From: Phaeodactylum tricornutum CCAP 1055/1
Taxonomy: Eukaryota; Bacillariophyta; Bacillariophyceae; Surirellales; Neidiaceae
Direction: 5' to 3'
DNA: 64,000 bases
NCBI RefSeq assembly: GCF_000150955.2
Contig: NC_011680.1
Location: 376,435-440,434, forward strand
The translations under genes and the position numbers were made by a program. This document shows positions 36,934-59,697 of the stretch, piece by piece (within the stretch, counting starts at the first letter, position 1; the number at the start of each line of letters is the position of its first letter). Under the pieces are notes generated by a model, which saw nothing but the letters and a program-made list of their open reading frames with translations, was not told the origin of the DNA and ran no database searches.

Positions 36934-37532
36934 GAGGAAATTCGCTAAATGGGTGTTAAGACCCTGCCAAATCCGCTAAATGGGTGCTTTACCGCTGCAC
37001 GTGCCATTTTTGCTAAATAGAAATTGTTGCTTACAGGCAAAATTTCAATGGAAAACGCTCTCATGTATAAAAGCATACGCCTGAGAAACTGAGACAATAA
37101 CTCAAGAGCATCAATTCAGGCTGGGCTGGTTGTTCATGATCAGATTCACAGTCAAGTGAAGCTGACCAATTGCATTCTCAAAAACTTGAAAATTGGCTGA
37201 TTCCAATATTGCTCTGAACTCAAATTATATTGCTCCCATACCAGGAAGGTTTAACTGGTGTCCACTTGGATGCCCCCCTTAAATTTGGTCAATTGCTTGA
37301 CTGTGAGGGACTTGTGATGCTATAATACAGTCCCTTTACTGGCAGTCTTCTGTCATAGGAACTGCTTTCTTGGATAATAGCCCATTTACAAATCTTCAAA
37401 AATTTGCATTATACTTGTACTCGTGATATAGCACTCAACGGACAAAAGCTATGTAAGTATGTAGAGTTACCTGGTTTACCACCCATTTAGTGGATTTGAC
37501 ATGGTCTGAGCACCCACTTAGCGAATTTCCTC
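36934..37532. mobile_element. Mutator-like MITE, element B
   Basis: A 599-bp element between perfect 9-bp duplications AACTAAAAA (36925-36933 and 37533-37541). The inverted ends match for about 62 bp and begin GAGGAAATTCGCTAA(A/G)TGGG. A second copy of the (C/A)GCTAAATGGG-type motif sits about 37 bp inside each end. The interior is AT-rich without coding sequence. It lies only 27 bp from the next element of the same kind. Confidence 0.88.
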
Positions 37533-37568
37533 AACTAAAAAAGATGTCCTTGGCTGATGAAAAAAGAA

Positions 37569-37962
37569 GAGAAAATTCGCTATTTGGGATGAGCAGGGGT
37601 GAAAATTACGATATTTGCGAAAAGATTCACTGATTTTAAGTGTTTTTGTTCTCGCGGGAAATGATTCATAAGTAAAAGTTTTCCTTAAGAGCAACCCCAT
37701 ATTTTCAATTCTCCACCTAGCATAGCAGCCTACTCTTTCTTTTTAGAACACATGACCCGGAGAACAACACTGGTCCGAAAGTAGAAGCACAACTACTATG
37801 AAGCTAGCAATAAAAGAGATCTTTCCATCACTCAATGCTTTTCATGTTGCATGGTTTTGTCCAAACCATGCACTTAATAAGAAATACAGGGTTTTAGAAA
37901 ACAAAGCCAAAAAGTGCTTTAGAGCAAACTGCTTTTAGGCACCTGCAACAAAGTGGAGAGAT
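37569..37962. mobile_element. Mutator-like element C, left part (interrupted by a copia element)
   Basis: Begins GAGAAAATTCGCTATTTGGG after the 9-bp sequence AAAAAAGAA (37560-37568). A motif copy, ACGATATTTG, lies 30 bp further in. The end repeat runs about 150 bp and pairs with 43173-43330, which is now in the same orientation. The remainder has coding-like pieces (KLAIKEIFPSLNAFHVAWFC). The copia element starts at 37963 after GAGAT. Confidence 0.8.
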
Positions 37963-40900
37963 TATTGATGAACACAAAACGACGATGGAGATCGAAGTCA
38001 CGAAAACGATGAACTACGAAGATTATGAGTCTACATTGTACTCTTGGATATTCGTAGGGACTGTGGGGCTGTGATTTGTTGTGTGTGGGACGGAAGCGAC
38101 TTGTCTTTTAGCAGTAGGCAATTGAACTTCTGGTGAGACGTTGTCCTTACCAGGAGTTTGATCAACACACCCTTGCTGCAAATGAGAAGTTGCTATGTCA
38201 TTGGTTGATGACTGTTCGAAAAGGTAGTGCGAGCGCATTTTGCGATGAGGCGCATGTTGCGGCTTGGTAGGAGGCGAACGTTGGAAGCGGGTTAGGGCTT
38301 GATCAATGTAGTCGGGCATGGACATGTCAAGGGTTCGATGTTCATAATTCCAAGCGAGTGTAAGACCTAGGTAACGCGTACCATCCCAATCAATTGTGAT
38401 AGTGTAGAGCGCTTGCAATGTGTCAATGAGGTGCTGAGCGTTGTTGGTGCCGGTGTATTTTACGCCAAAGTCGTCGACAACTAGGGTAAATTGAATCGGG
38501 CGTGTGACGTGTCGAAAAAGGCCCGCAGTATGCGCGGTCTTGACGTAGCCGTGGCGAGCGAGGTGTTCAACAAGGCGGTCATGGGCGAGAATGCCGGCTT
38601 GGGGAAGGCTGTACATACCTTTGCGAATTTCGACGGTAACTGAATTGTTGTGGATAAGAGGGGCCAACTGGTACTGAGCCAAAATGATGGGAGGAATATC
38701 TGGGACCGGGATATGCATGTATTCGTAGCATGCCATGGGGGTGCCAAGATTGAAGTCTTTGATATCAATGCACATGAACTTTGCCGCAGGAGTTGAGAGG
38801 ACACTGTTGAAGAGGAGCTTGGCTGTGGTGATGTCCGCAGTTGGGGTGCTAACCTTGCCGGGGTACTGAACTAAGTTGCCACCGACGGTAAAACGTATGC
38901 ATTTGGGTTCTGCTTTCTGCGGGCGAATGCTGGCAACAATGCGTAAGTAGGTGGCCCTGTGTCCGGGAAGAATGGCGGTATGCGCGATGAAGTGCATAGT
39001 TTGGCTACCGTGAGTGCTGTGAGGCGGGTTACCGCTGGTGAGACGGCCAATTTCGTTAGCCGCGGCTTGAATCCAATCGGGAGCATTGGGACCGGTGCGT
39101 AGGTGGCGGTACTCTAAAGAGGCGCCGGTTGCGGGGTCGACAACTGCGTTGGCGGAGGCTGGGACAAGAAAGGGTCGGGTGCGGGTGTTGTGTGGATGAG
39201 CCGGAACTAAGGTTGGGGTTGGCGGTTGCTTGCGTGCTTTGCGACGGCGGCGGCCGGGATTGCGGGTCCGAGAGAGCACCCTCGGAGCTGGCGGCGCAAG
39301 GATGGGCACCCTCGGAAGTGCAGGAGCATGCTCGGCCGTGACAATGTGAACAGCAAAGCGGACTTGAGCAGGGGGAGGTGCTGGGACCGGGGGCGCGGGA
39401 GTCGGTGCAGCGGTCGGAGAGGCCGGAGCAGCGACCGAAGCAAAGAGATCGGCAAGATGTAGAAGGGCCTGGTGTTGGGTGGCGTCCAATGGTGCAAACG
39501 GCGAAGCGGGAGAGGGATTTTGGAGGGCGCGCACTAAATCACGGGCGGTGGCCAGGGCGCGATCGGTGGAGGAGGCAGTGGGCATAGGAATGCGACTGGG
39601 AAACCACGCAAGAGTGTTGGCAACACGTTCGGCACGCGTCTCTGTGATCCAAACGCGATGGCAGCGGTAGTGGTGCAGAGCGGGGCCGAGGTACCAGCCT
39701 TCAACAGCATGGGGTGCCCAAGTTTCCCGAACGGCGGGCTTTTCGTGGACGAGGATGCGAGTGCCGGGAGGGGCGAGCGGGGTGCGGTTGTAGTCAAACG
39801 CGCCATGGAGCTGTGCGTGGGCCGAGAGGGTGGGGTTGATGCGAGAGCCACGGAGGAGATTGAGACTAAGCAGAGCGTGGGGAATGAGGCGGTCCCAAAG
39901 GTGAAGCGGAAAATCCGGGGTCGTACTGCAGAGACCGGCAATAAAGTGATTCTTGAAGGTATGTATGGCGCGTTCGGCGGCGTTGCGACGGTGCAGATTG
40001 GGTGGTGCCAACTGGAAGTCGACCTGGTTGGCCGTCATAAAGGACTCGAGAGCGGGAGACGCCTCGTTGTCTAGACGCTGGAGTTGCGGCTGAAGGCCCC
40101 GTTGAGTGAAGAGTGAGTGGGCACGTTGGTAGGCTGCTAGGATCTCGGCGCCGGACTTGCTCTTCATGAGTTCAACATGGATGGCATTGCTATCGTAGTC
40201 ATACAGCACAAGCATGTCCGTGTGGCCTGTACTCGAGGGAGTGAGGAAACGGCCCGGTTGATCTGTGTAGATCTGGCCGGTGACTCGTTGGTGCGCGGCG
40301 AAGACATGGTGGGTTCGGCCAGCGGGAGGAGTGGCCGGGGCCGGGCAGAAGTCTAGCTGGGATTCATGGAGAGGGTTGGGCAAGGCCACTGGAGGAACGG
40401 AGGAAGGTTTGGTGGACCGAAGATTGGCGCGTTGTTGGTCTAAGTGGCCCTTGATGGTGGCCATAGAGAGGGGAGGGTACTTGCGCCCTTGTTTGGAGGT
40501 GATGTCGGGGAAGGTGGGGAGGCGCCCGGCATCAATAGCGGTACACCAAGTGGAGAGAGCAGGGGAGAAATGGGAGGCATGTACGAAAGCGATGCGGTCT
40601 GCCAGGGAGCTGTCGGGAATGAGGGCATGGGCAGTCTTGGCTGGGGTGAGGTCAAGGTGCCAGAGGCCGGTGGCGGGTGCTCGAGCGCCGGTAAGAAGCA
40701 GGGTGGTGTCTCGGTAGATGTCGAGTCGGGTGGCGGAGAATGTGGCGGTGCAGCCGTCGTCACAGAGTTGGCCAATGGAAATGAGGGGGTGGGAAGCGAG
40801 GCCAGGAAAGATGTAAGCTTGGCAAGCAGCAGGGGAAAAACCAGGGAGGTCGAGAGTTGCCGTGTGGCTGGAACGGAGGGTAGCGCCGTTGGGAACACGG

Positions 40901-41147
40901 ACGGAGAGTGGAGAGGCGGCAGGTTGTCGGTTGAAGTGGGGGCAGGACACGGTGATGTAGTGTCCTGTGCAAAAGGTGTCGGCAATGGTCGAGGTCATGG
41001 TACTAGGCGGGGAGGGGACTACAGACAAATTAAGACTAGTAATATGATTGATTAGATCGTTATTACTAGTTTTAAGTGTCGCGGACGGGGACATGATGGC
41101 AGAGGGCAGGACAGGGGAGCGGTAGGGCAGGGCTGGGATCAGAATGA

Positions 41148-41181
<34 letters not shown>

Positions 41182-41392
41182 GCTTCGTAGTTCTATTGAA
41201 GAACACAAAACGACGATGAAGATCGAAGTCACGAAAACGATGAACTACGAAGATTATGAGTCTACATTGTACTCTTGGATATTCGTAGGGACTGTGGGGC
41301 TGTGATTCGTTGTGTGTGGGACGGAAGCGACTTGAGCAGTAGGCAATTGAACTTCTGGTGAGACGTTGTCCTTACCAGGAGTTGAATCAACA
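37963..41392 (-). mobile_element. Ty1/copia LTR retrotransposon, short relative of the element at 43754
   Basis: Fossil copy on the minus strand. LTR at low coordinates 37963-38167 (205 bp), LTR at high coordinates 41194-41392 (199 bp); both start TGTTGAT and end TCAATA in the element sense. The parts recognised between them are a protease-like region, integrase and reverse transcriptase of the copia class, in one long frame. It is much shorter than a full copia element, so it is broken or non-autonomous. The two LTRs differ by only a few per cent, so it is fairly young. The flanks are GAGAT on one side and AAGAT on the other and do not match each other (see findings). A run of 31 G lies just inside the high-coordinate LTR. 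Confidence 0.88.
41149..41179. repeat. Homopolymer run of 31 G
   Basis: In the sense of the surrounding copia element it is a C run just after the LTR. The related element has only a short C run at the same place (about 43973). Run length in the assembly may be unreliable. Confidence 0.9.
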
Positions 41393-41443
41393 AAGATCGG
41401 ACTTCAAATTTAAAAAAACGGCTAGCTTTTCGGGTTGTTGATA

Positions 41444-41500
41444 GAGGAAAACCGCTATTTCGGCCTGAACGACATAAAAAATCGCTATTTCGGCCAAATC
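41444..41500 (+). repeat. Solo end of a Mutator-like element (D)
   Basis: Starts GAGGAAAACCGCTATTTCGG, with the motif again as AATCGCTATTTCGG about 37 bp inside. This is the same arrangement as in elements A-C and E. No partner end is found between here and the nitrilase gene, so it is a fragment. Confidence 0.6.
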
Positions 41501-41732
41501 TGAAAATTTCCAACAGTGGGCGGCACCATAGGATGAAGAAATAAACTCAGTATAAGGCTGTCTATATATGTGTTAAATATACAATGGAGCGCCCAATGAA
41601 GTGGTAGGTATCTCAGCCGCCTTTGGCTAGATACCTAGATGAGACCTTGAAATTAGATAAGCATCACAGATGAAAATTCAGAACCGCAAACTGAGACACT
41701 CAAGAAATCAAGAGCGAACTGGTTGCCACTGA

Positions 41733-43024
41733 CTAGAACTCAGCAGCTCTTCGATGATTTTGAATCGGAATACGTTGGCGAGCCGAGGTGACAAGGTCCA
41801 AGTCAATTTCTTGTACCATAATTGACGGTGTGACGAGGTTCGAGGCGTCGATGGATACCGTACCACCACCGTCCGCGCCCCCAGCGTCTGCCAAGACTTC
41901 TCCCCATGGGTCAACAATGAGTGCATGTCCATAACTTTCTCTTTTGTGATTGTGCTCACCAAACTGCGCGGCGGCAATGACGAAACATTGATTTTCTATT
42001 GCTCGTGCTAAAATGTAAAATATGTTAAACTGTGAGACTCCCTTAGCGAAGCAAAAGGCAGCGCAGCCAGGCCGGCTCTTACTCAAAACATACCGCGGAG
42101 TAGAGTGTGCCAGTGAGCGGTGCCAGTTGGAATTGTGAATGCGCTTGGCACCAGCAAAATCTGCGCGCCTTGTGTAGTGAGTTTTACGTACATTTCTGGG
42201 AAGCGCAAGTCGTAACATATAGTTACCCCTAGACATCCTGCACAGCCAAGGTGCGGACGTGGTGAGACCAAACGATCAGCTCTGATCCAACGGCGACGAC
42301 ACAGATTCTTACCGATGGGACTGTCGCAAACCTTCACGGCTTTGCCGGGAGCAGTAGTCGCACTTTCTCTCAAGCTCACTTGTCCAGGGATTTCGACATC
42401 GAAAAGGTGTATTTTTCGGTAAAGGCACTTCACGGTGCCTACACAATCAATGATTAAGTGCGTATTGTATACTCTCGAATGGTCTGGGTCTGCTGTATCG
42501 TGAGGTGGAGCGCCGGACACATGAATTCCTCCCGCCGAAATCCATAGTCCGCTCTCACGAGCAATGTTGCGAAGACCATCCAGAATCAAAACTTGCTCCG
42601 TTGTCCCTACAATCGTTTTATCGTCTATGTCTTCTTTCTTGCTTTCATATGCAAGCCGAACAGCTGATTTGATTGCGCTGACAAGTGTATAGGAGTTCCG
42701 CGGACCACTGTCAGCATCTTGGATTGGGGGATCCGCCTCTTCTAAGGTTTGCGAGGCACTTTCCCCCAGAAAGCAGCAACATTCGGGAAGAAAAAGCATA
42801 GCAGCACCATCCCGTTTGGCCCAACCTGCACACCTAGCAACGTCCAAGAGATTAGAGAATTTGTCAGAAGTGGATCGAAGCTGAGCAACGGCGATCCGAT
42901 GTTTGCTGCCGCTAGTAAATGCCGTAGACATGTGCATGGCACCGGACGACGGCGAAAACCCTGACAGAAGTAATCGAATCTGCTGTGCGCGTCTTTGTTT
43001 GGTTGCCCCACAAAAGAACAGCAT
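41733..43024 (-). CDS. Nitrilase-superfamily amidase, NIT1-like
   Basis: Protein of 376 residues. Exons (minus): 43024-42313, 42237-42094 and 42007-41733; introns are GTAAGA...GTGCAG and GTATGT...TTTTAG, both phase 1. The family's Glu-Lys-Cys triad is visible: MLFLPECCCF, YRKIHLFDVEIPG, and GVTICYDLRFPEMYVKL with the nucleophile cysteine. The third exon has QCFVIAAAQFGEHNHKRESY, GHALIVDPWGEVL and a C-terminal RIPIQNHRRA. NIT1 relatives hydrolyse deaminated glutathione. The first 38 residues could be a mitochondrial presequence, with a second start at MSTAFTS. It stands between two copia elements and probably now reads opposite to its original direction. Confidence 0.92.
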
Positions 43025-43172
43025 TCACTGCAACCAGTTGATGGATTTTTACTGATCGTTCTTTGCGTCGAAGAGAGTTAGAAAGAAGTTTTCATAGGCC
43101 ATATCGATTCCGACTTTGCTCCAACTCGGTGCTGCTGGTATCACGAAACAAATAGGTTGTTGGTTCTTTTTT

Positions 43173-43753
43173 GAGAAAATGCGCTATTTGGGATGAGCAG
43201 GGGTGAAAATTACGCTATTTGGGAAAGCATTCAGTGATTTTAAGTGGTTTTATTCTCGCGGGAAATAATTTGTAAGTAAAATGCTTACAGTTAGTTAAGA
43301 ACAAACCCATATCCTATGAATAGCCATGAAGATTCAATTTCGCAGTTCCCTCCATAAAGGTACCGTCTGGATCAGCTTTTTTGAGGTGACCAAAGTAGGA
43401 ACTCAGCAAGAAATATTGCCCAATGTGTACTTCAACACCATCTTGGCGCTTTGCCATAACAACATTTTAGGCCTGAGTCGCTTTCGGTTGTATTCCACCA
43501 GACTTGCGTGCTATGTCCCGAACTTGTTGTGCGGCGCCCATGCGCTGTTTTTTGTTTGGAATATGCGCAGCAAGAGCGGGAGAAACACTTTCTAGAAGCA
43601 AACATTTTTATTGCCGCTTCCTTGCACATGCATTGTCAGAGCAGGTATGTCCATTTTGAAAGGAGTTGATTATCCATTCACCTGTGAAGCATCCATCCTG
43701 GCTCTTTATGGGCGTCGCATAGATGTGGCACTGGCACACTGACTCGGCATCTC
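43173..43753. mobile_element. Mutator-like element C, other end (now in the same orientation as the left end)
   Basis: Starts GAGAAAATGCGCTATTTGGG, with TACGCTATTTGGG again 30 bp inside, and matches the end at 37569 over about 150 bp. The 9 bp before it (43164-43172) are TTCTTTTTT, the reverse complement of AAAAAAGAA at 37560-37568. On the minus strand, 43750-43330 gives transposase-like text (GCFTGEWIINSFQNGHTCSD, LLSSYFGHLKKADPDGTF). It stops at the copia LTR at 43754. Confidence 0.8.
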
Positions 43754-45437
43754 TGTTGATCCAACTCCTGGTAAGGACAACGTCTCACCAGAAGTTCAAT
43801 CGCCTACTGCTAAAAGACAAGTCGCTTCTGTCCCACACACAACAAATCACAGCCCCACAGTCCCTACGAATATCCAAGAGTACAATGTAAACTCATAATC
43901 TTCATAGTTCATTGTTTTTGTGACTTCGATCTCCATCGTTGTTTTGTGTTCATCAATAGAACTACAAAGCAACCCCCCCGTCTTTCTGTTCCCAGCCCTG
44001 CCCTACCGCTCCCCTGTCCTGCCCTCTGCCATCATGTCCCCGTCTGCCAATTTTACCATCTCCGACTTTCCTCACAAAGTCCTCAATCCAATCGCCACCA
44101 ACACCATTGCTCCCTCCTATGCGTCGCTTCTCCTGGCCCAATGCCAGCTCAGCGCCAATGCATCTGCCATTCCCAGCCTCAACGGCGGCGGCGCCCATGG
44201 TCACATGGCTCTGACGCTCACCGCCGCCGCATACGCCGAACTGTCCGACGTCCCCTTCGTCATCCCCATTGCTCCCCCTGCCGACCCCGAACCGGGTACC
44301 ATGCAACCCCAAATTACGGAGAACAATCAACTCCACAAACGCGCTGTGGCCATCCACAGCCTCTACGTGGCCGTCAACAATGCCCTCTGACACCAAATCC
44401 TCGACGCCGTTCCTCGCGTCTACATCCGCGACTTAGAGCACCCCCAGTTCGCGTACAGCCACGTCACCTGCCTTGACCTCCTCGACCATCTCTGGCGCAA
44501 CTTTGGTACCATCACCGCTTCTGACTTAAAAAGCAACATACAATCCATGTATACCCCCTGGAACCCGGTTGACCCCATCGAGACCATTTTTCACCGGCTC
44601 AATGACGCAATTACGTTTTCGACGGCTGGCCGCGACCCTATCTCCGAACCAGCTGCCGTTCGCGCCGGCTATGATGTTTTCGAGCATTCGGGCCTGTTCC
44701 CTCGCGCCTGCGAAACCTGGCGCACAGCCTCGCCCGACACACACACCCTCGCCAACCTCCGTACGCTCTTCAAGGTCGCCAATACCGACCACAAGCGTAC
44801 GCTTACCACCGGCTCCCTCGGCTATGCCAACGTCCTTGCCGCAACACCATCGGTTCTCCCGTCGCTTGCGCCAGACTCGCTCAGCCTTCCTTTTTCAGCC
44901 CTCTTGGTGTCCAATTCCTCTGCTACTCTCTCGGAGAAAACTTATTGCTGGACCCATGGGTCCAGCAATAACCGTCGACACACTAGTGCCACATGCAAAA
45001 ATAAGGCCCCCGGACACAGCGACGACGCGACGGCCACCAACACCCTTGGCGGCTCCACCAAAGTTTGGACTGCCCCCAAGCCTCCCGAATAGGAAAGAGG
45101 GACGGCTACGCCAACGATTAACACTAGTAATACCGATTATTTAAATCATATTACTAGTCTTAACTTGTCCGTAGTCCCCTCCCCGCCTAGTACCCACACC
45201 TCTGCCATTGCCAACACCGGCTGCACAGGCCACTACATTACAATCGACTGCCCTCACACTCACCGACACCCAGCCAACTCCAGCCTTGCCGTCTGTGTCC
45301 CAAATGGCGCTGTCCTCCGCTCCAGCCACGTTGCCAACCTGGCCCTGCCAGGTTTTTCCCCTGCCGCCTGCCAAGCCCACATTTTTCCTGGGCTCGCTTC
45401 ACATCTGCTCCTCTCCATTGGTCAACTGTGCGATGCT

Positions 45438-45864
45438 GGTATCCAGGGCCAGGTTTGGCTGCACCCTTACCAAGGTCCTTGTACGTTTTATACTCACAAT
45501 GCTGGGCCAATTCAAGAGCCATGGCATCAGCCCAACGGGTATTCCCAGCGTCGGCATCAAATTTCAAAGCTTCACGAGAATTGCGAGGGACAAGGACGCC
45601 AAACTTGAAAATGGGGTCTCCCTTACGCTGTTTCGTCAATGAAACAGTTCGGTTAAAGTCATCGCGATTACGAAGCAGGCGATTGAAGCGTCGCCATCCG
45701 GGAACAGCAAGGAGATCGTTCTCAGACGCGTACATCGCGAGTGTGACTGGATCATCCTTTGCCATTTCAATCAAAGGCTCATAGGTCTGGGAACCATCCT
45801 CCCATTGAACCAGAACATTCCACGACAATCCCTTATAGTTTACATCAGTTGGTTGCAATGGTCC
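45438..45864 (-). mobile_element. Fragment of another copia family
   Basis: A minus-strand piece with the region between integrase and reverse transcriptase (LQPTDVNYKGLSWNVLVQWE, PIFKFGVLVPRNSREALKFD). It is closer to the nested element at 46.8-53.2 kb than to the host copia element around it. A truncated fossil without ends. Confidence 0.75.
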
Positions 45865-46735
45865 TAAGGGGAGGGGTATCCCAGAGTAGTAACTATGTAC
45901 CTCGCTGTGTAAAATTTATCCAAAAACTCTTCCTAAGTAATTCCTCTGGGATAGCAGGGTTTTGCTCTGAGATATCAGGGTTTCCCTCTGGGATATCAAA
46001 TAAGGTTAAAGCCACTACTCTGGGATACCTAACTTGCTGACGTCCGGCATACAGCTTTCACATTCACAGTCAGTTGTTCTTCCGCGAATTGTTTGTGTCG
46101 TGTATTTCCTCTGGGATATCATATCCTTCCTCTGGGATATCAAGTATTCCCTCTGGGATATCAAATAGGGTTAGAGCTACTGCTCTGGGATACCTAACCT
46201 GCGGACGTCCGGCATACAGCTTTCACATTCACAGTCAGCTGTTCTTCCGCGAATTGTTTGTGTTGTGTATTCCCTCTGGGATATCATATCCTTCCTCTGG
46301 GATATCACCTATTCCCACTGGGATATCAAATAGGGTTCGAGCTACTCCTCTGGGATACCTAACTTGCTGACGTCCGGCATACAGCTTTCACATTCACAGT
46401 CAGCTGTTCTTCCGCGAATTGTTTGTGTCGTGTATTTCCTCTGGGATATCATATCCTTCCTAAGGGGAGGGAGAACCCAGAGTAGTATTTTCATACAATG
46501 ATGTATATAATCTATCCAAAAACTATGCCTAAGTAATTACTCTGAGTTCACTATCCGACATTTAAGTAATTACTCTGAGTTCACTATCCGACATGTAAGT
46601 AATTACTCTGAGTTCACTATCCGATTTTGTAAGTAATTACTCTGGGTTCACTGTCCTACAACATAAGTAAACACGGGGCGTATTCCCTCTGGGATATCAA
46701 ATAGGGTTCGAGCTACTCCTCTGGGATACCTAACC
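45865..46735. repeat. Satellite-like array with a 165-bp unit and a 33-bp unit
   Basis: CTCTGGGATACCTAAC recurs at 46018, 46183 and 46348, an exact 165-bp period. Each unit holds several CCTCTGGGATATCA copies and one TTCACATTCACAGTCAG. From 46530 a 33-bp unit (TAAGTAATTACTCTGAGTTC) occurs four times. The block CCTAAGGGGAGGG begins both the left edge (45865) and the stretch at 46459. No coding sequence. Confidence 0.85.
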
Positions 46736-46754
46736 TGGGTTAGGGTTAGGGTCA
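46736..46754 (+). repeat. Short TTAGGG-like tract
   Basis: GGGTTAGGGTTAGGGTCAGG at the right edge of the satellite. Two exact TTAGGG units and one variant, too short to call a telomeric remnant with confidence. Confidence 0.4.
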
Positions 46755-46756
46755 GG

Positions 46757-49700
46757 TACGTACAAGTTTTGCTGTTCATACAGCCAATTGAGTAAAAATC
46801 AGCCCAGGACTTGCAAACCTGTGGCTGTTGTGTTGAAACTTTAAAGTGTGAGGTGACCCTGTCACCAGAATTAATTCATTGAATTGAGAGTCTCAGACCC
46901 AGTGAAAGGGGAGACTAAAGGCCTTGTGTGTGTGCAGTGTTGTTTGAGGAACATCTGCAAAATTTGAGTTGAATTGAACTCATATTGATTGAGAAAAGAC
47001 TGTTTGGCTCACCATTGTCAGGTGGCAACAGTTGAAAGAGAGGGGGGTAAAATTGATTTTTTTCTTGCCCTTGTTTGTTGAAAAGGAAACAAGCCTGATT
47101 GAGCCTGATTGAGCCTGAGTGTTCTGTTTTGGCATTTGGCATCCCAGTGAAATTGTTTTGGATTTGCTAAGTGAATTTGTTTCTTGTAATTGCCATCCCA
47201 GTGAAAGTGTTTGGAAACTGTTAAGTGAAATTGTTTCCTGTAATTGGCATCCCAGTGAAATTGTTTTTGGGAACTGCTAAGTGCATTCCTGCTTGTAACT
47301 GGCATCCCATTGGAGCTTTCCTTGTTTTCTGTCCCTGTCCCTTTCTCTGGTTGGAATTTGGAATCTGAACTTTTCTCCGGTTAAAGTCTGTTTTTGAACC
47401 TTCCTCTTGTTGGGATTTTAAATTTGAAATTCTCCTCACTGGAATCATTTTGAAAATTGGAGAAATCCCCAACCCTCTTGTTACCATGACCACCACCAGA
47501 AGCAATACTTTTAGTGATGCTACTGTGGAGTATGTTGTTGGAACTGTCCTGGATGCTAACTCTGAGTCTCCTTACAGGCTTGTCCTGAAGGAAGCTGGTA
47601 TTGAATCTATGATGGACATTCTTGAGTTGACTTTGGATGACCTACTGTTTCTGCAGTGGACTTCAGGAGAGGAGACCCCCAAGAAGTTGACCCTTGTCCA
47701 ATCCAAGCGTATCATGCACCTCATTGCCTGGCATAGAACTCAGGATGACCCAAGCAATGTGGATTGGTTTTCATTGACTCCTACAGTACTCAGACAGTTT
47801 AGAGAAGGTGAAATCTATTCCAAGCCCCAATGTGCAGATGAGATGTCTGAAAATTCCTACACTGTTCCCCATGCCCAGCCAGCATTGCCTAATGCTGCTT
47901 ATGACTTTGACAAAGGTACTGAGAGAAGTATTGCTGACTATCCTGTTCTGAAAGAAGCCAAACAATGGTCCTCTTGGAATCGCCAGACCAGAGCTCTTGC
48001 CCTTTCCCATGGCCTACTGAATGTATTTGACCCTGCCTATGTTCCCCTCAACCCTGATGAAGCCTCTCTGTTTGCTACTCAGCAAAGATTTGTCTTCAGT
48101 GTGTTTACCATGGCCATCAAGGAAACCAAGGGAATGATTATCATACGCCAGCACTCTGATGAAAAGAATGCTATATCTCTGTTTGGCAATGCTCAGCTTG
48201 TCTACACTGCCTTGATGGCTGCCTATGAGGGTGGTGTTGTGGCTACACTTTCTGCTCAGTATCATGAAACCCTTCTCTTGAATTACAACTTGAACAATTC
48301 CTGGACCAAACCTCTTGTGACCTGGTTTTCTTCTTTTGAGCACAAACTGCTGGATTTGGACAATGTGCTTCCTACTCCCAAGGATGATGCTTGGAAGCGC
48401 AACAGACTTGAAATGGCTGTGCTTCATCATACTCAGCTTCAGACCTTTCATTCTACACTTTCTACCCAGGCACTTGTGATGGGCAAGCAACATGACTTCC
48501 TCTTTGAACTTGAAGCCTGCAAGACTCAAGCTGCCAAATTGGATGCGCAGGCTGGCATGAAAGTTAAGACACAGAGGCAGACCAACAACCATGAGCGTGG
48601 TGGGACCAAAGGTACTGGCCATGGCAATGCTTCCAACAGGAAGGGCAATGCTGGCCGTGGTGCATCCAAGGGTAAAGCCAAGGGAGGCAAGTATTCTAAC
48701 TATATTGACCCTGCAAAATGGAATGCTATGACCTCAGAAGAAAAGCAAGCTGTCTACGATGCATGCTCTACACCCAGTGCAAGCAACACTCCCAATGCAA
48801 ACCCAGTCCCTTCCTCTGTGCTCATCAACCAAGGTACTGTGCAACCAAGTTCTACTTCTGATGCTGTTCCAACTGGACAACACATTGTCCCCAGTAGTGG
48901 TGCCTCTGCTCTCTCTGGTACCACCAACCAGTCTTTCATCAGGCAACTGCTTTCTAATGCTACTGCCAGAACTCCCACTGTACCTACTTCTTCCCATGAT
49001 GGGGAGATTGTCATTGATGGGCTCAGGTTCAGACATGTTAATATGCACAAGGTCAGCTACTGTGTTAGCAACTATGACTTGGCCCTTCAGACCCACCAGG
49101 GTTCACTCATTGATGGTGGGGCTAATGGTGGCATGTCTGGTGCTGATGTCAGAGTCTTGGAAAAGGGATTTGCCACTGCTGATGTTACTGGTATTGGCAA
49201 TCATGCTGTTTCCAACTTACCTATTTGTCAGGTTGCAGGTGCTATCATGACTACAAATGGATTGATCATTGGCATCTTCAGTCAGTATGCACATTTTGGA
49301 AAAGGAAAAACTATTCATTCTAAGCCTCAGATGGAACAGTTTGGACTTACCATTGATGACAGATCCAGACTTAGTGGAGGGCAACAAAGAATGGTAACCC
49401 CTTGTGGACACATCATCCCTTTGCACATTTGCAATGGTCTTTGCTACATGGATATGCACCCTCCCAGTGATACTGAAATGGATGCCCACCCCCATGTCTT
49501 CTTTACTGCTGACATGCCTTGGGATCCCTCCATTTTGGACAATGAATACACAGAGCATGAGTTCTCTGACTGTCTTGCACCTGAAGACTTCACTCCTTTG
49601 GATCATCGTGTGAACCAATTTGGAACTACCACTGATTCTGATTTCTACCTTGACACTTGTATTCATGCTGTCCATAACATGCAACTTGTGCATTCCCAAC

Positions 49701-52700
49701 ATGTCTCAACTCAAGTGCCTGACTTGCAAGCACTACGCCCTAATTTTGGATGGATTCCTGTTGAGAGATTGAAGAACACCTTGGCTAATACAACTCAGTA
49801 TTACAGGGCTTCCATCTCTTACCCATTCAGAAAGCATTACAAGTCAGTTTCCCTGCTGCTAATGTTCACAGATTGAATGAATGGTTTGCTACTGACACCT
49901 TCTTTAGCAATGTACCTGCTCATGATGATGGTTACATGCACCATGGTGGTGCTACTATGTTGCAAGTCTATGCTGGCAAGGACTCTGGATACTTAGCTGG
50001 GTATCCCATGAAGATGGAAGGTCAAATGCCCCAGACTCTAGAAGACTTTATCCGTGATAAAGGTGCTCCTTTGGGCTTGTTCAGTGACAATGCTAAGGCC
50101 CAGACCTCCAAGGCTGTTGAGACCATTCAGCGCCTCTACCATATTGCAGATGCTCAATCTGAGCCTCACTATCAACATCAAAACTTTGCTGAGCGCTGTA
50201 TCCAAAACATCAAATGTATGATCAATACTATTATGGATCGCACTGGTACCCCTGCCAAGTACTGGCTCCTTTGCACTCTGTTTGTCATTGACCTATCCAA
50301 TCACCTTGTGAGTGATACACTTCAAGCAACTCCTTTGACCCGATGCTTTGGTATTCCCACTGATGTTTCTGCTTACCTCACTTACCATTGGTGGCAATTG
50401 GTTTATTTTGAGAACCATGATGGCTCTTTTCCCTCTACTCCTAAGGAAGGCCTTGCTCATTGGGTTGGTCCTACTAATATGAAGGGGGATGTATTGACTT
50501 ATCAGTTGCTGACTGTGGATACTCAGCAGCTGCTCTTTCGCTCCAACATTTGTCCTGCTACCACTGACCCCATGGTCCCTAATGCCAGAGTTGATGCCTC
50601 TGCTGCTCCACATCTTCACCTGGAGGCAGGGGAGGAAAAGGACCAGTCAGACAACATCAAGTCTATCTCTGCTTTCCAAAAGATTGATCCTTCTTATGTA
50701 AAACTGCCTCTCTTCTCTCCAGATGAGTTAGTTGGACTGACCTATCTCCATAAAGACCCAGATGGAGAGCAATCCTTCAGAGCTACTGTCATTCAACAGA
50801 TTATTGACAGGGATGCAGAAAACCACCAGAATCTAAAGTTCTTGGTTAAGATTGGTGATGAGGAGAGAGATGAACTGATTGCCTATAATGAACTGTCTGA
50901 TCTTATTGAGAAGCAACAAGAAGCTGAAGCCAATGGAAACCAAGATGTTTGGACCTTCAAGGGTATTGTAGGGCACCAAGGACCTTTGAAATCATCTGAC
51001 TTTGGATACAAAGGATCTACCTACAATGTGCTTGTCTCCTGGGAGGATGGAAGTGAAACTTATGAACCACTGAATGTGATTATGAAGGATGATCCAGTCT
51101 CATGTGCCAGGTATGCAAAAGACAACCACCTACTTGACACCCCTGGATGGAAGAACTTAAAAAGAATTGCCAAGCAAGAGAAGATGTACCAGCGTATGCT
51201 CAATCAAGCCAAGGTGAAGTCCCACCGCCATAGCATTCGATACAAGTTTGGTGTCTGTGTTCCCCGTGACTACTGTGAGGATGTTGTTCTGGATGAGAAA
51301 AATGGGAATAGACTGTGGCAAGAGGCAATCCAAACTGAACTTGACCAGATTCATGAGTATGCTACCTTTAAGGATGTTGGCCATTCTAACCATGGTGCCA
51401 AACCTCCTGATGGATACAAGAGGATCAATGTTCACTTTGTCTTTGATGTGAAGCAAACACTCAAACGCAAGGCCAGATTAGTTGCTGGTGGCCACATGAC
51501 TGAGCCCCCCAAGGACAGTGTGTACTCTGGTGTTGTTTCCTTACGTAGTCTGCGCATTGTCATCTTTTTAGCTGAGCTGAATGGACTACAACTTATGGCT
51601 GCTGATGTTGGGAATGCTTATCTTACTGCATACACCAAAGAACAAGTTTACTGTGTTGCTGGACCAGAGTTTGGGGAGCTTGCTGGACATGTTCTTGTTA
51701 TTCACAAGGCCCTTTATGGATTATGAACCAGTGGAGCCAGATTTCATGAGAAGCTGGCTGATACCCTCAGAGCTGAAGGTTTCCACCCTTCCTATGCAGA
51801 TCCTGATGTATGGATGAGGGATGCTGGAGACCTGTGGGAGTATGTCTGTACCTATGGTGATGACTTGCTGGTAGGAATGAAGGACCCTTCTGCTTTTATG
51901 GACACTCTTCAATCATCCAAGTGGAACTACAATTTGAAGGGTGTTGAAGAGCCCTCTTACCATCTTGGTGGTGATTTTTACCGTGACCCAGATGGCACCC
52001 TTGCTTATGGAGCAAAGAGTTATGTGAAAAGACTTGTTGAAAGCTATGAGATTCTTTTTGGAGAGAAGCCCAGGAACTACAAGTCACCCCTTGAGAAGGG
52101 TGATCACCCTGAACTTGATACTAGTGAGCTTTGCAATGATGATGACATTGGAAAATACCAAAGTTTGATTGGAGCTCTTCAATGGAGTATTTCTTTGTGC
52201 CGTTTTGACATTGCTGCTGCTGTTATGACTATGGGGCGCTACCGTGTGAGCCCACGTGTGGGACATTTGGAACGTGTCAAACGTATTGTTGGCTACCTTA
52301 AGCAACATTCTCATGGAGCTATTTGTTTTCGCACTGGTATGCCTGATTTTGCTGCTTTTGATTCTCAGATTGTGGAGTATGATTGGATGTATTCTGTGTA
52401 TGGTGATGGCAAAGAGGAGCTACCTGTCAACATGCCAATACCCAAAGGCAAAGCTGTCCGGACTATTACTTTCAAGGATGCCAACTTGTATCATGATTAT
52501 ACTACTGGCAGAGCTGTTACTGGAGTTTTGCATTTGCTGAATCAAACCCCAATTGATTGGTTTTCCAAGAGACAGAACACTGTTGAGACTGCAACTTATG
52601 GATCTGAATTTCAAGCTGCACGCACTGCCACTGATCAGATTGTTGATTTGAGATACACCTTGAGAATGTTTGGTGCACCTGTTGATGGACCTGCTTGGTT

Positions 52701-53219
52701 GTTTGGAGATAATGAGAGTGTTGTGACCAGTTCTACAGTTCTTCATTCCCCTTTGGGGAAAAGGCACAATGCATTGTCTTACCATCGTGTTCGTGAAGCC
52801 ATTGCTTCCAAGGTGATGATTTTCCTTCACATTGATGGCAAACAGAATGTTTCTGATTGTCTCACCAAGATGCTTCCTTTTGCAACTGCTTGGCCTTTGA
52901 TTCAACCACTTCTTTTTTGGCGTGGGGAGACTGACTCTGCTACCATTTGATGCAAGCCTCTCAACGAGGGGAGTGACAAGAATCCATTTTGAGTCTTGAC
53001 TTACTGTGGTTAGGGTTTCGTTGATAGGTGGATGGACTATTTGTGATGACGTCATGTGTGATGTCATATAGTGTGATGATGAGGACACTGTGGTGTCCAT
53101 TGTGATGATGCATGGATTTAGGATAGGAATTTATGATAATGAGTGCCTCCTGTGAGGCTCTCAGATTACTAGAAATTACCTTTTTGATTGTGATCTCCCC
53201 TTTGTTGATCTATTCAACA
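46757..53219 (+). mobile_element. Nested Ty1/copia retrotransposon (distinct, AT-richer family)
   Basis: Fossil inserted in the larger copia element. Parts in order: an untranslated leader with a tandem repeat, Gag (from about 47.5 kb), zinc-knuckle/basic region and protease (LIDGGANGGMSGADV), integrase (about 49.9-50.4 kb), reverse transcriptase (about 51.2-52.1 kb) and RNase H (to 52.95 kb). A polypurine tract and a 3' LTR follow at about 52973-53219 (TGACAAG...TTCAACA). No matching 5' LTR was found at the left, so that edge is approximate. The coding part is nearly whole, with about two breaks. Its T-rich codon use differs from the GC-rich host element, showing a different family. Confidence 0.85.
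47141..47310 (+). repeat. 54-bp tandem repeat in the leader of the nested copia element
   Basis: ATCCCAGTGA recurs at 47141, 47195 and 47249, and as ATCCCATTGG at 47303, giving a constant 54-bp step. Each unit also contains GAA(A)TTGTTT(C)TTG and a GCTAAGTG-type segment. Confidence 0.85.
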
Positions 53220-56200
53220 AGCTGCAGCCAAGGGATCTGATCAATCCCTATCTCAGCTTGTCAAGCCCCCTGCCACAGCCCACGCTCTTGTTCCCAACAC
53301 CCCCCTCGCCAACTGCATCGCTTTTGTTCACGCCTCGCTCTTCTCCCCGGCTCTCTCTACCTGGTGCCAGGCCCTTGACTCCGGCCATCTTACGACTTTT
53401 CCAGACCTTTCCTCCCGCCAGGTCCGCAAGTACCCACCCAGCTCCCCCGTGATGATCAAAGGTCACCTCGATCAACAACGAGCGAACCTACGCTCCACCA
53501 AGCTTTTCCCCGTCGTTCCTCCAACAACCACGACACCTCCAGCCGATCCTGAGCCCGACCTTGATCCTCCCGCAACCCACCCCATCGCACGCACACACCA
53601 TGTCTTTGTTGCCCACCAACGGGTCACCGGTCAGATCTACACCGACCAACCGGGCCGCTTTCTCACTCCCTCCAGTGCCGGCCACAACAACATGCTCGTC
53701 CTTTACGATTACGACAGCAACGCTATCCACGTCGAACTCATGAAGAACAAGTCCGGCCCCGAGATTCTGGCCGCCTATCAACGCGCTCATTCTCTTTTCA
53801 CCCAGCGCGGCCTCCGTCCTCAACTCCAACGTCTCGACAACAAAGCCTCTGCAGCCCTCCAAGCCTTCATGACCTCTAAGCACGTCGACTTTCAGCTGGT
53901 ACCCCCCCCCCCCCCCCCCCCATCTACACCGTCGTAATGCAGCCGAACGAGCCATCCGGACCTTCAAGAACCACTTTATTGCTGGCCTTTGCACCACAAA
54001 CCCGGATTTTCCACTGCATCTCTGGGACCGCCTTCTCCCCCAGGCCCTTATCACCCTCAATCTCCTTCGTCGGTCCCGCATCAATCCCAAGCTGTCCGCC
54101 CACGCCCAGCTTCATGGTGCTTTCGACTACAACCGCACCCCGCTTGCTCCTCCCGGTACTCGCGTCCTAGTCCACGTCAAGCCGTCCGTCCGCGAAATGT
54201 GGGCCCCCCATGCTGTCGAAGGTTGGTACCTTGGCCCCGCCCTGAACCATTACCGTTGCCACCGCGTCTGGATCACCGAAACACGTGCCGAACGTGTTGC
54301 TGACACCCTTTCCTGCTTCCCGACCCGCATTCCCATGCCCGCCGCTTCGTCCACCGACCGCGCCCTGGCCGCCGCCCGTGACCTAGTCCATGCCCTCCAG
54401 AATCCTTCCCCTGCGTCTCCGTTCGCCCCCCTTGATGCCACCCAGTACCAGGCCCTCACCGACCTTGCCAATCTCTTTGCCACCGTAACCGCCCCGGCCG
54501 ATGACGTCCTTGCACCCGCTCCATTGCCTCCGGTCCGTCCTCCTGCCCCAGCAACTCCCCTTGCTCAAGTCCGTTTTGCCGTTCCTCTTGTCACGGCCGA
54601 ACATGCCCCCGCACTACCGAGGGTGCCCATTCCGGCCACAGCACTTCCGAGGGTGCCCACCACGGCCACCTATCACTCTCGCACCGGCAACCCCGGCCGT
54701 CGCCGCCGCAAAGAGCGCACCCAACCGACAACCCCAACCCTAGTTCCGGCGCATCCACACAACACCCGCACCCGACCCTTTCTTGTCCCAGCTTCCGCCA
54801 ACGCAGTTGTCGACCCCGCAACCGGCGCCTCATTGGAATATCGCCACCTGCGCTCCGGCCCCGACGCTCCCGATTGGATTCGCGCCGCCGCCAACAAAAT
54901 TGGACGGCTCACTCAAGGTAACCCGCCCCACAGTACCACCGGCAGCCAAACTATGCACTTCATCACGCATAATGCCATTCCTCCTGGTCACAAGGCAACC
55001 TACTTGCGCATTGTCGCCAGGATTCGCCCCCAAAAGGCCGAACCCAAGCGCATCCGGTTCACCGTTGGTGGCAACTTAGTTCAGTACCCCGGAAAGGTTA
55101 GCACCCCAACTGCTGACATCACCACAGCCAAGATCCTCTTCAATAGCGTCCTCTCCACGCCCGCCGCCAAGTTTATGTGCATTGACATCAAGGATTTCTA
55201 TCTTGGCACCCCCATGGCTCGGTACGAATACATGCGCATCCCGGTTCCCGATATTCCTCCCACCATCATGGCTCATTACCGGTTAGCTCCACTCATTCAC
55301 AACAACTCTGTTACCGTCGAAATTCGCAAAGGTATGTACGGCCTTCCCCAGGCCGGCATTCTCGCCCACAACCGTCTAGTTGAACACCTTGCTGCCCACG
55401 GCTACGTTAAGACGAAGCATACCGCTGGCCTATTTCGACACGTCACGCGCCGTATTCAGTTTACCCTAGTTGTGGACGACTTTGGAGTGAAATACACTGG
55501 CAACGAACACGCCCAGCACCTTATCAACACTCTCCAATCACTTTACACCATCACCATTGACTGGGACGGCACTCGTTATCTCGGACTTACACTTGCTTGG
55601 GATTATGAGCAACGCACCCTCGACATGTCCATGCCCGACTAGATCGACCAAGCCCTAACCCGCTTTCAACGATTGCCCCCTCTTACGCCTCAACATGCGC
55701 CGCACCTGGCATTACAACCCAACTCACACCAGTCCCTGATACCACTGAGCCTCTCGATGCATCCGACAAGACCCACCTGCAAGAAATCATCGGAACCCTA
55801 CTTTATTACGATAGGGCTGTCGACTCGACCATTCTCGTGGCTCTCGGCACTCTGGCCTCGGCACAGTCAACTGCAACCCAAGCGACACTTCATGCCGCCG
55901 AACATTTACTTGACTACTGTGCCACTCACCCACACGCTACAGTACGTTTTCAGGCTAGCGACATGTGTTTACACATTCATAGTGATGCTTCCTACCTTTC
56001 CGAGTCGAAAGCCCGTTCTCGTGCTGCAGGTCAATTTTTCCTCAGCAGTCGACCCCACAATCCCAGTGCTGCTCCCGCTCCGACTGATCCGGCCCCTCCC
56101 AATAATGGCGCCATTCATACACATAGCTCCATCATGTCCGTTGTTCTTTTGTCGGCCGCCAAAGCAGAACTCGGTGCCCTCTTCTACAACGCCAAGGACG

Positions 56201-56976
56201 CCACCGCTTTCCGGGTCACTCTCGACGAACTTGGCCACACACAGCCACCTACGCCTATCCAAACCGATAACGCCTGTGCCTCCGGAATCGCCAACGAAAC
56301 CATCAAGCAACGACGTTCTAAAGCCATTGACATGCGTTTCTACTGGGTTAAAGACCGGGTCGAGCAAAAACAGTTTATTATTTACTGGCGACCCGGACTC
56401 ACAAATTTGGCTGACTATTTCTCCAAGCATCATTCTCCCGCACATCATCGCAAAATGCGCTCGCACTACCTTCTCGAACAGTCACCAACCAATGACAAAG
56501 CAACTTCTCATTTGCAGCGAGGGTGTGTTGATTCAACTCCTGGTAAGGACAACGTCTCACCAGAAGTTCAATCGCCTACTGCTAAAAGACAAGTCGCTTC
56601 CGTCCCACACACAACAAATCACAGCCCCACAGTCCCTACGAATATCCAAGAGTACAATGTAGACTCATAATCTTCGTAGTTCATCATTTTCCTGACTTCG
56701 ATCTTCATCGTCGTTTTGTGTTCTTCAATAATCTTTTCTGTTTGACTGTGAATGTGAGGTTACAGTTGGTTATGCTACTCTTAGTCGGAATATCAAACCC
56801 CTAATGACGTCATATCGGAATGTGGGTCTGTCTTTTGGAACGTCAGGCATCCATCTATGCGCCCAAAACACCGATTGAAGCTGACATTGACATGGAACAG
56901 TGAACATCGCCGTTATTAGTCTCCATAGATCTCGAGCATTCTCTCTCGCTTCCTCTCGTGCAGAAGGAAAGTTAAA

Positions 56977-58121: not shown

Positions 58122-59697
58122 GAGGAAATTCACTAAAGGGGATGGAAAAAGGTGAAAACTCCCTTAAAGGGGACAGAACGTGTTCACTCTAAGTAGCATC
58201 ATTTGACACTCAAACATTGTTATGTATTCAAACTATTTATACTAAACAACAAAATTTTAACCTTGATGCCGACGTTTCCCGCCACGATGTTTATTGCATG
58301 GTCTCCGATGAGAGTGAGATATGCGATCGTACTCGTCTTCGTCGTTGGTAAAAAGTGCCACCCACCGCTTGGGATGCTGATTAATCAACGTACCTCGCAT
58401 TCGGACGACGACGCGATTGCTGGAGATCGAACGACGTTGTGGCGGTCGTCGAAGACTCGGAGGGGTCGACGATCCCTTCCAAAATTCGATGGGGATCGTA
58501 CAAATAAAACGTAACCTCGGCATTGACGTGTGCCCGTGAATGCTTGTCATGTTGGGGCTGCTTTCTCATCCAACACGCAGACTGTCTGCGGAGCAAAGTG
58601 CATCTGACCAGTGCCGTCAACGTCAACGTTGGGGGGATGAGGGGTGGCGGGAGGTGGACGAAGCCCGACGTAACGGGTCATCGGTGATTTATAGTCTACC
58701 GCAACGTGTGGAGGGTGGGGTGCCACCCTGGGATGCCCATAACCCTACCATTCCCCGACGACGATGATCTTGGTGTGGATCAGTCGATGGCGTTTGAAAC
58801 CGTGACCAAATTGGAACCAGTAGATGCTTCCGTTATTGAAGCCGGCAAGAAATTAGCGACAGGTATTTTCTTGACCAAGGATATTGTCAACGCCCCGCAC
58901 AACGTCTTGATCTCGCTTTCGCTTGCCGAGACAGCTAAGCGCATTGCCGAGCAGAGCGGTGGACGGATCATTTGTGAAATCCTCGACAAAGAGGCCTGTG
59001 ACGCCCGCTGTATGGGTGGCTTCCTTGGAGTAGCGCGCGGCAGCGAAACGCCTCCTCAGTTCATCCATTTAACCTACACTCCACCCTCGGGAAAAATTTC
59101 CAAGAAGGTCGGAGTCATTGGGAAAGGCCTCCTCTTCGACATGGGCGGCTACAATATTAAGACCGCCATGATGGAACTCATGAAGTCTGCACTGAAACAC
59201 CGCGTTGGTCGATTTTCCAAGGTCCTGTACTTTTTACTGAGCACATGATTCAGGCTGAACCATGCAGCTTGGAGAGCTTTAAAGGAAGGAAACGTATCTC
59301 CGACGGCTATCATCATGCTCAGAGTGCATTGTTTGGAAAGCCCTACAATGAAAACTTTTCCGTTACGAGACTCCTTCGACGGTCCAGGACCAACTAATCC
59401 AGAGACTCGCTGCCGTTGCAGCCTTCCAGATTGTCGCCCGAAGTCCCCAACGAGGTTTGCTACCGTAACAAACGTGAATTTGCGAGTGGGTTGCCCTGTT
59501 CTCACTCTCATCGGAGACCATGCAATAAACATCGGGGGGGGAAACGTCGGCATCAAGGTTAAAATTTTGTTGTTTAGTTTAAATAGTTTGAATACATAAC
59601 AATGTTTGAGCGTCAAATGATGCTACTTAGAGTGAACACGTTCTGTCCCCTTTAAGGGAGTTTTCACCTTTTTCCATCCCCTTTAGTGAATTTCCTC
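58122..59697. mobile_element. Pack-MULE-like element E carrying a peptidase gene fragment
   Basis: A 1,576-bp element with perfect 9-bp target duplications ATTAATTTA (58113-58121 and 59698-59706). Terminal inverted repeats are 198 bp (58122-58319 and 59500-59697), about 97% identical, starting GAGGAAATTCACTAAAGGGG with a second motif copy (CTCCCTTAAAGGGGACAG) inside. The interior holds a leucyl-aminopeptidase fragment (58742-59190). It also has an open frame at 59221-59397 (VLFTEHMIQAEPCSLESFKG) and a minus-strand frame around 58390-58530 (VNAEVTFYLYDPHRILEGIV). All look like pieces of exons from other genes. No transposase. Confidence 0.9.
58742..59190 (+). pseudogene. Leucyl aminopeptidase (M17) fragment captured in element E
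   Basis: Open frame of about 150 codons: AGKKLATGIFLTKDIVNAPH, then NVLISLSLAETAKRIAEQSG, CEILDKEACDARCMGGFLGV, ARGSETPPQFIHLTYTPPSG and VGVIGKGLLFDMGGYNIKTA. This spans the linker and the start of the catalytic domain, including the lysine of the GGYNIK motif. It stops right after MMELMK, before the NTDAEGR motif and the remaining metal ligands, so it cannot be an active enzyme. Cysteine replaces the usual glycine in CMGG. It has no stop codon up to the break, so capture was probably recent. Confidence 0.85.

Follow-up and report, generated by a model that had tools for sequence, protein, structure and literature searches.

Ectopic recombination between endogenous retroviruses was reportedly detected by Hughes and Coffin in 2001 through swapped target duplications and unlike LTRs, and Devos, Brown and Bennetzen are said to have taken plant LTR retrotransposons lacking matching duplications as recombination products in 2002. 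In the diatom Phaeodactylum tricornutum, the main text of Maumus et al. 2009 (PMC2806351) reports five elements without target duplications, together with an exchange between PtC25 and PtC75 that split another element, with an ACAAG duplication, between chromosomes 11 and 31. The word inversion is absent from that main text, and no description of the inversion considered here was found in the titles and abstract openings of the literature searched.

Here we analyze a related arrangement in the same species, in which a segment is flanked by two homologous copia elements in opposite orientation (E1 and E2) and holds the right half of a Mutator-like element (element C) together with a nitrilase gene. 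The window, that is, the whole 64,000-nucleotide stretch analyzed, corresponds to C12:376435-440434, and the genome searched comprises 27,450,724 bases in 88 contigs. An earlier note had attributed the arrangement to inversion of the nitrilase segment by recombination between the two opposed elements, and the evidence supports this account: element C is continuous at six of six listed places elsewhere in the genome, and the subfamily types of the two copia elements are exchanged. On these sequence comparisons we consider an inversion between E1 and E2 very probable, whatever the repair route. The features on which the argument draws are listed below.

37560..37568, plus strand: AAAAAAGAA, 9-bp target duplication on the left of element C (exact sequence check)
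37569..37957, plus strand: Mutator-like element C, left half, ending where E1 inserted (genome-wide sequence matches)
37958..37962, plus strand: GAGAT, left target duplication of E1 (exact)
37963..41392, minus strand: E1, copia-type, 3.43 kb (paired LTRs and alignment to relatives)
37963..38167, minus strand: 3' LTR of E1, type A, partner of the LTR at 43754 (LTR sites, tree)
41081..41392, minus strand: 5' LTR and leader of E1, presumed to originate from the other element (type B at columns 180 and 199)
41194..41392, minus strand: 5' LTR of E1 (LTR pairing)
41393..41397, plus strand: AAGAT, the left target duplication of E2, now displaced; it reads ATCTT when reverse-complemented (exact)
41393..43753, no strand: non-element part of the flipped segment (the halves of element C are continuous elsewhere in the genome)
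41733..43024, minus strand: nitrilase-family gene (CN_hydrolase) in two overlapping open frames (PF00795 profile match)
43164..43172, plus strand: TTCTTTTTT, 9-bp target duplication on the right of element C, now displaced (it equals AAAAAAGAA when reverse-complemented)
43173..43748, minus strand: right half of Mutator-like element C, flipped (genome-wide sequence matches)
43749..43753, plus strand: ATCTC, the right target duplication of E1, now displaced; it reads GAGAT when reverse-complemented (exact)
43754..56730, plus strand: E2, copia-type, carrying an insert of about 7.8 kb at 45434-53261 (paired LTRs and alignment)
43754..43958, plus strand: 5' LTR of E2 (LTR pairing)
43754..44762, plus strand: 5' LTR of E2 with the adjoining ~0.8 kb of its internal part, mainly type A, presumed E1-derived (diagnostic sites)
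44762..44777, plus strand: best-fit interval of the A-to-B switch in E2 (44759-44831 if one further misfit is allowed)
56526..56730, plus strand: 3' LTR of E2, type B, partner of the LTR at 41194 (LTR sites, tree)
56731..56735, plus strand: ATCTT, right target duplication of E2 (exact)

Paired LTRs with a 5-bp target duplication are expected of Ty1/copia (CoDi) elements, and among the 11 two-LTR copies of the E1/E2 family, defined as those with both LTRs in hand, the duplication is exact in ten, C29 showing one mismatch. The E2 frame at 54197-55642 matches RVT_2 at E 0.0014 and the E1 frame at E 0.053, both under the curated cut-off and with no family reached at E 0.001; among the 120 homologues listed for the E2 frame are named diatom reverse transcriptases and many proteins with PF07727. 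The insert in E2 was delimited against copy C14a, and about 120 nt of the element are missing at its position. Within it are a second copia-type pol frame (RVT_2 in 49873-51726) and two sets of repeats, one in tandem units of 165 bp (45937-46466) and one in units of 33 bp (46530-46662); none of the repeats listed forms an obvious LTR pair for it.

The decisive evidence for inversion is provided by the two halves of element C, which would be continuous once the segment was turned back. A search for the ends of the element returned two matches at no more than three mismatches (shuffled mean 0.00 over 100 shuffles), and these ends (37569 and 43173) both lie on the plus strand, in the same orientation and 5.6 kb apart, just as the earlier note had said. 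The accompanying 9-bp duplications were likewise found to be reverse complements, with AAAAAAGAA at 37560-37568 and TTCTTTTTT at 43164-43172. Long terminal inverted repeats and a 9-bp target duplication are the hallmark of Mutator-like elements, and all four of the other copies with both ends in hand (two further rows were left out) show exact 9-bp duplications and facing ends. Turned back, element C would have AAAAAAGAA on both sides and ends facing like those of the other copies, and it would be a short derivative, amounting by arithmetic to 970 nt when rejoined. Directly to the left of element C lie two 60-nt inverted arms (36934-36993 and 37473-37532) that are 85% alike.

Paralogues of element C document its uninterrupted form. 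The left half (37569-37957) has at least 58 matches in the genome, and six other places reach its inner end, that on C19 to position 387 of 389. At four places (C20, C31, C12:125 kb and C9) the matches of the left half abut exactly on those of the right half, taken as the reverse complement of 43173-43753. A 305-nt query for the empty E1 site was built from 150 nt of left-hand sequence, a single GAGAT and 43599-43748 in reverse complement. It crosses the junction at six of the six other listed places where the left half is present to its inner end. In four of these matches, identity is 88-93% and the aligned length is 303-305 nt out of 305; the match on C24 extends only 15 nt past the target, and the one on C19 extends 58 nt past it, gapped and at 79% identity. 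The fourth base of the target is G in all six paralogues and A in both window copies, which fits a base private to element C that was duplicated upon insertion of E1. Of the copies listed for the sequence from 41393 onward, which are a lower bound, none falls within 35 kb of any of the six paralogues.

The 5-bp words flanking the copia elements had been given as GAGAT (37958-37962), AAGAT (41393-41397), ATCTC (43749-43753) and ATCTT (56731-56735), and all four are exact. It had further been claimed that turning the segment round makes both duplications perfect. The words do match, but the argument is weak alone: read in the orientation of each element, E1 is flanked by ATCTT and ATCTC and E2 by ATCTC and ATCTT, so that all four flanks are ATCT[C/T] and the pairing hangs on one informative base. 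Mismatched duplications also occur among relatives, since in addition to C29 one of ten solo LTRs has one mismatch and another has two (the remaining eight are exact), and the 5-bp evidence is therefore insufficient by itself. Target preference, considered as a cause of the likeness between the E1 and E2 words, is unlikely and was rejected, because, with 40 of 84 candidate LTRs scored, ATCT[C/T] flanks none of the retrieved LTRs other than those of E1 and E2. An empty E2 site was also sought genome-wide: 56736-57200 matches only itself in the assembly, and 41393-42100 finds matches elsewhere only to its positions 43-269, as dispersed repeats.

An LTR retrotransposon derives both of its LTRs from a single template at each insertion, and the LTRs of a naturally arising hybrid element would accordingly be expected to be alike at first. 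E1 and E2 each carry unlike LTRs, with the types crossed between the elements. We compared 44 retrieved LTRs that each cover all 205 alignment columns, a requirement that removed the match at C19:584723 as well as a C2 fragment. Three sites (alignment columns 8, 180 and 199) pair 37963 with 43754 and 41194 with 56526, in agreement with the grouping proposed previously, and at column 8 T is found in two of the 44 LTRs, namely 41194 and 56526. The single contrary site that had been pointed out is also present: T at column 48 occurs in two of the 44 (37963 and 41194) and groups the present pairs, and as this is a CpG site repeated C to T mutation is possible. At column 167 three of the four E1/E2 LTRs have G in common, and an extra event is needed under either pairing. 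A conversion tract is possible as well, since the ends of 41194 match 56526 and its columns 48 and 167 match 37963. A tree built from 15 LTRs out of the 44 joins 37963 with 43754 and 41194 with 56526, in both cases with low support (0.44 and 0.69), and the LTRs of the two elements differ at 4-11 of about 200 sites.

The LTR sites were rejected as sole proof of exchange, both for the contrary column 48 and for the control C13b (L089/L090, C13:806827-812027), whose 5-bp duplication is exact and whose LTRs nonetheless differ at 11 of 205 sites, perhaps through LTR gene conversion; unlike LTRs alone are thus no proof of exchange. Relative to the other three LTRs, the one at 43754-43958 has six private changes, all C to T or G to A and five of them within CpG, a pattern that would resemble the decay of methylated DNA.

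Internal sequence locates the exchange. Subfamily A is represented by C13a and C13b (C2 is similar) and subfamily B by C14a, C20a and C29; E2 is of type A at its 5' end and of type B over the remainder, and E1 has a 5' LTR of type B and a remainder of type A. The first 1.68 kb of the element contains 82 diagnostic columns. At the 44 of these up to column 1009, E2 shows 35 A, 7 B and 2 neither, and at the 38 from column 1024 it shows 3 A and 35 B (Fisher P 2.5e-12). The best single switch leaves 10 misfits, a fit equalled by 0 of 20000 permutations, and its interval spans 16 bp; moving it to columns 1006-1009 or 1024-1078 costs one more misfit, and about 70 bp lie within that margin. A short B patch in E2 at columns 730-817 may be a conversion tract or family history, and C29 is itself mosaic-looking near columns 1441-1680.

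On the E1 side, three of four usable sites in the 5' LTR and leader are B and 17 of 19 past the deletion are A (Fisher P 0.02), with disagreement between leader sites 290 (A) and 292 (B). At the 114 sites of the 3' internal part, E1 has 63 A, 5 B, 7 neither and 39 gaps, and E2 has 97 B, 5 A, 5 neither and 7 gaps. These patterns would most simply mean that E1 and E2 exchanged their 5' ends. Compared with relatives, E1 is without ~1.07 kb upstream of the reverse transcriptase and ~0.76 kb near its 3' end; the former deletion, with its junction at 41081 and 1 nt shared there in the alignments, removed the corresponding stretch, and the exchange point is thereby hidden on this side. The leader of E1 also contains a C tract (41149-41179) that, read on the element strand, runs to 31 C, whereas close relatives have about 7.

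A crossover between LTRs was rejected, given that the 5' LTR of E1 is of type B as far as its final diagnostic column (199) and that E2 stays mainly type A for ~0.8 kb beyond its LTR, which places the crossover within the elements. The flipped span of 41393-43753 proposed in the earlier note has to be replaced by one of ~41.08-44.77 kb, which includes the 5' ends of both elements, with the crossover ~1.0 kb inside.

One could dispense with inversion by supposing single insertions, the mutation of one base in each duplication, and mosaics inherited from template switching during earlier reverse transcription. Relatives offer precedents for each ingredient, in the single duplication mismatches of 1/11 two-LTR copies and 1/10 solo LTRs, in the mosaic appearance of C29 and in the unlike LTRs of C13b. 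Such a history, however, leaves the same-orientation ends of element C, its 6/6 continuous paralogues and its 9-bp duplications unexplained, and it sits badly with E1 and E2 having unlike LTRs with swapped types when one template serves each insertion. We regard it as almost certainly wrong.

Around the switch in E2, relatives of types A and B are ~80% identical and share runs of no more than 14 nt, as against shared runs of 24-51 nt in the rest of the same internal stretch. This low likeness is unfavorable to a homologous crossover, leaving room for another repair route, and it is equally unfavorable to misassembly through confusion of copies. An error that placed the segment between the inverted repeats the wrong way round in the reference would yield the same displaced duplications and exchanged types, and passages of the telomere-to-telomere paper (PMC9266582) tie LTR-dense regions to ambiguous assembly at scaffold ends in the earlier assembly and to possible rearrangement. 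Against such an error stand the ~80% identity with its short shared runs, the 4-11 differences among LTRs and the zero count of N in the window; as both the switch region and the LTRs differ, ordinary reads should separate the E1 and E2 copies. We therefore judge misassembly to be very improbable.

Granting a real inversion, the repair route can be weighed separately. End joining, or template switching during repair or replication, would suit the low identity and short shared runs at the E2 switch, as well as the deletion in E1, which spans the place where the switch is expected and whose junction shows 1 nt in common in the alignments. The switch in E2 nevertheless falls at the homologous position with no net gain or loss of bases, the corresponding pieces of E2, C13a, C14a, C20a and C29 all measuring 1680 nt, and end joining would keep homologous position and length only by chance. 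Inversion by a route other than homologous crossover is on this evidence unlikely.

The displaced duplications, the division of element C, the change from A to B within E2 and the exchanged LTR types can be read directly from the sequence. For the inversion through E1 and E2, we infer in addition a homologous crossover, an order of events, a timing for the deletion and a correct assembly, as follows. E1, of subfamily A, would have inserted into the Mutator-like element C and duplicated GAGAT, and E2, of subfamily B, would have inserted in the opposite orientation on the far side of the nitrilase gene, where AAGAT was duplicated (ATCTT on the assembled plus strand). Recombining as inverted repeats in one reciprocal exchange ~1.0 kb into their sequences, the two elements would have turned round the nitrilase gene, the right half of element C and their own 5' ends. 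The inner halves of the target duplications would thereby have changed places, and each element would have become a hybrid of A and B. Either later or during the same repair, E1 would have lost ~1.07 kb across the exchange point.

The nitrilase gene had been assigned to the flipped segment, and at 41733-43024 it lies inside the revised span too. Its two overlapping frames match PF00795 over positions 1-192 and 193-255 of 256, and as together they cover the CN_hydrolase domain the gene looks whole. Downstream of it in the flipped segment, 41443-41661 is occupied by two dispersed repeats, one of ~70 nt with at least 33 matches elsewhere and one of ~149 nt with at least 8. Persistence of the segment in both orientations, as diploid haplotypes or through recurrent flipping between the opposed elements, appears quite improbable; if it were true, the strand and neighborhood of the nitrilase gene would vary within the species. 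Passages of PMC8147415 describe LTR insertions in P. tricornutum as often present in one haplotype only. Elsewhere in the window, a 1367-aa frame at 31932-36035 combines AMP-binding, carrier, male-sterility-type reductase and short-chain dehydrogenase domains and is thereby an NRPS-like reductase, and 198-nt inverted arms (58122-58319 and 59500-59697), 98% alike, surround ~1.2 kb that include a cytosol aminopeptidase (Peptidase_M17) frame.

The inversion is real in the sequence as assembled and ordinary in kind, and its documentation is unusually good: a small inversion has been traced very fully from one sequence, through displaced duplications, a split transposon with continuous paralogues and a subfamily switch. 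It adds inversion to the rearrangements credited to copia elements in P. tricornutum and hints that such exchanges are possible between elements only about 80% identical, and it leaves unchanged the kind of mechanism known.

Hughes and Coffin reportedly relied on the same logic of inference, applied to primate retroviruses and without a split third element as standard; the cases of Devos, Brown and Bennetzen reportedly concern chiefly DNA loss between elements in direct orientation, whereas here the outcome is an inversion. A close parallel is the exchange between PtC25 and PtC75, which, as set out in the main text of Maumus et al. (PMC2806351), shares with the present locus the species, the involvement of one copia-type family, missing or displaced duplications and a transposon in two exactly continuous halves. 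It differs in being interchromosomal, whereas the event described here inverted a local segment of a single scaffold; here, too, both duplications are present, the internal switch has been mapped and the split third element is a DNA transposon. Retrotransposon-mediated rearrangement in P. tricornutum is already known, having been published in 2009, and the present inversion is a new, well-documented instance of it.
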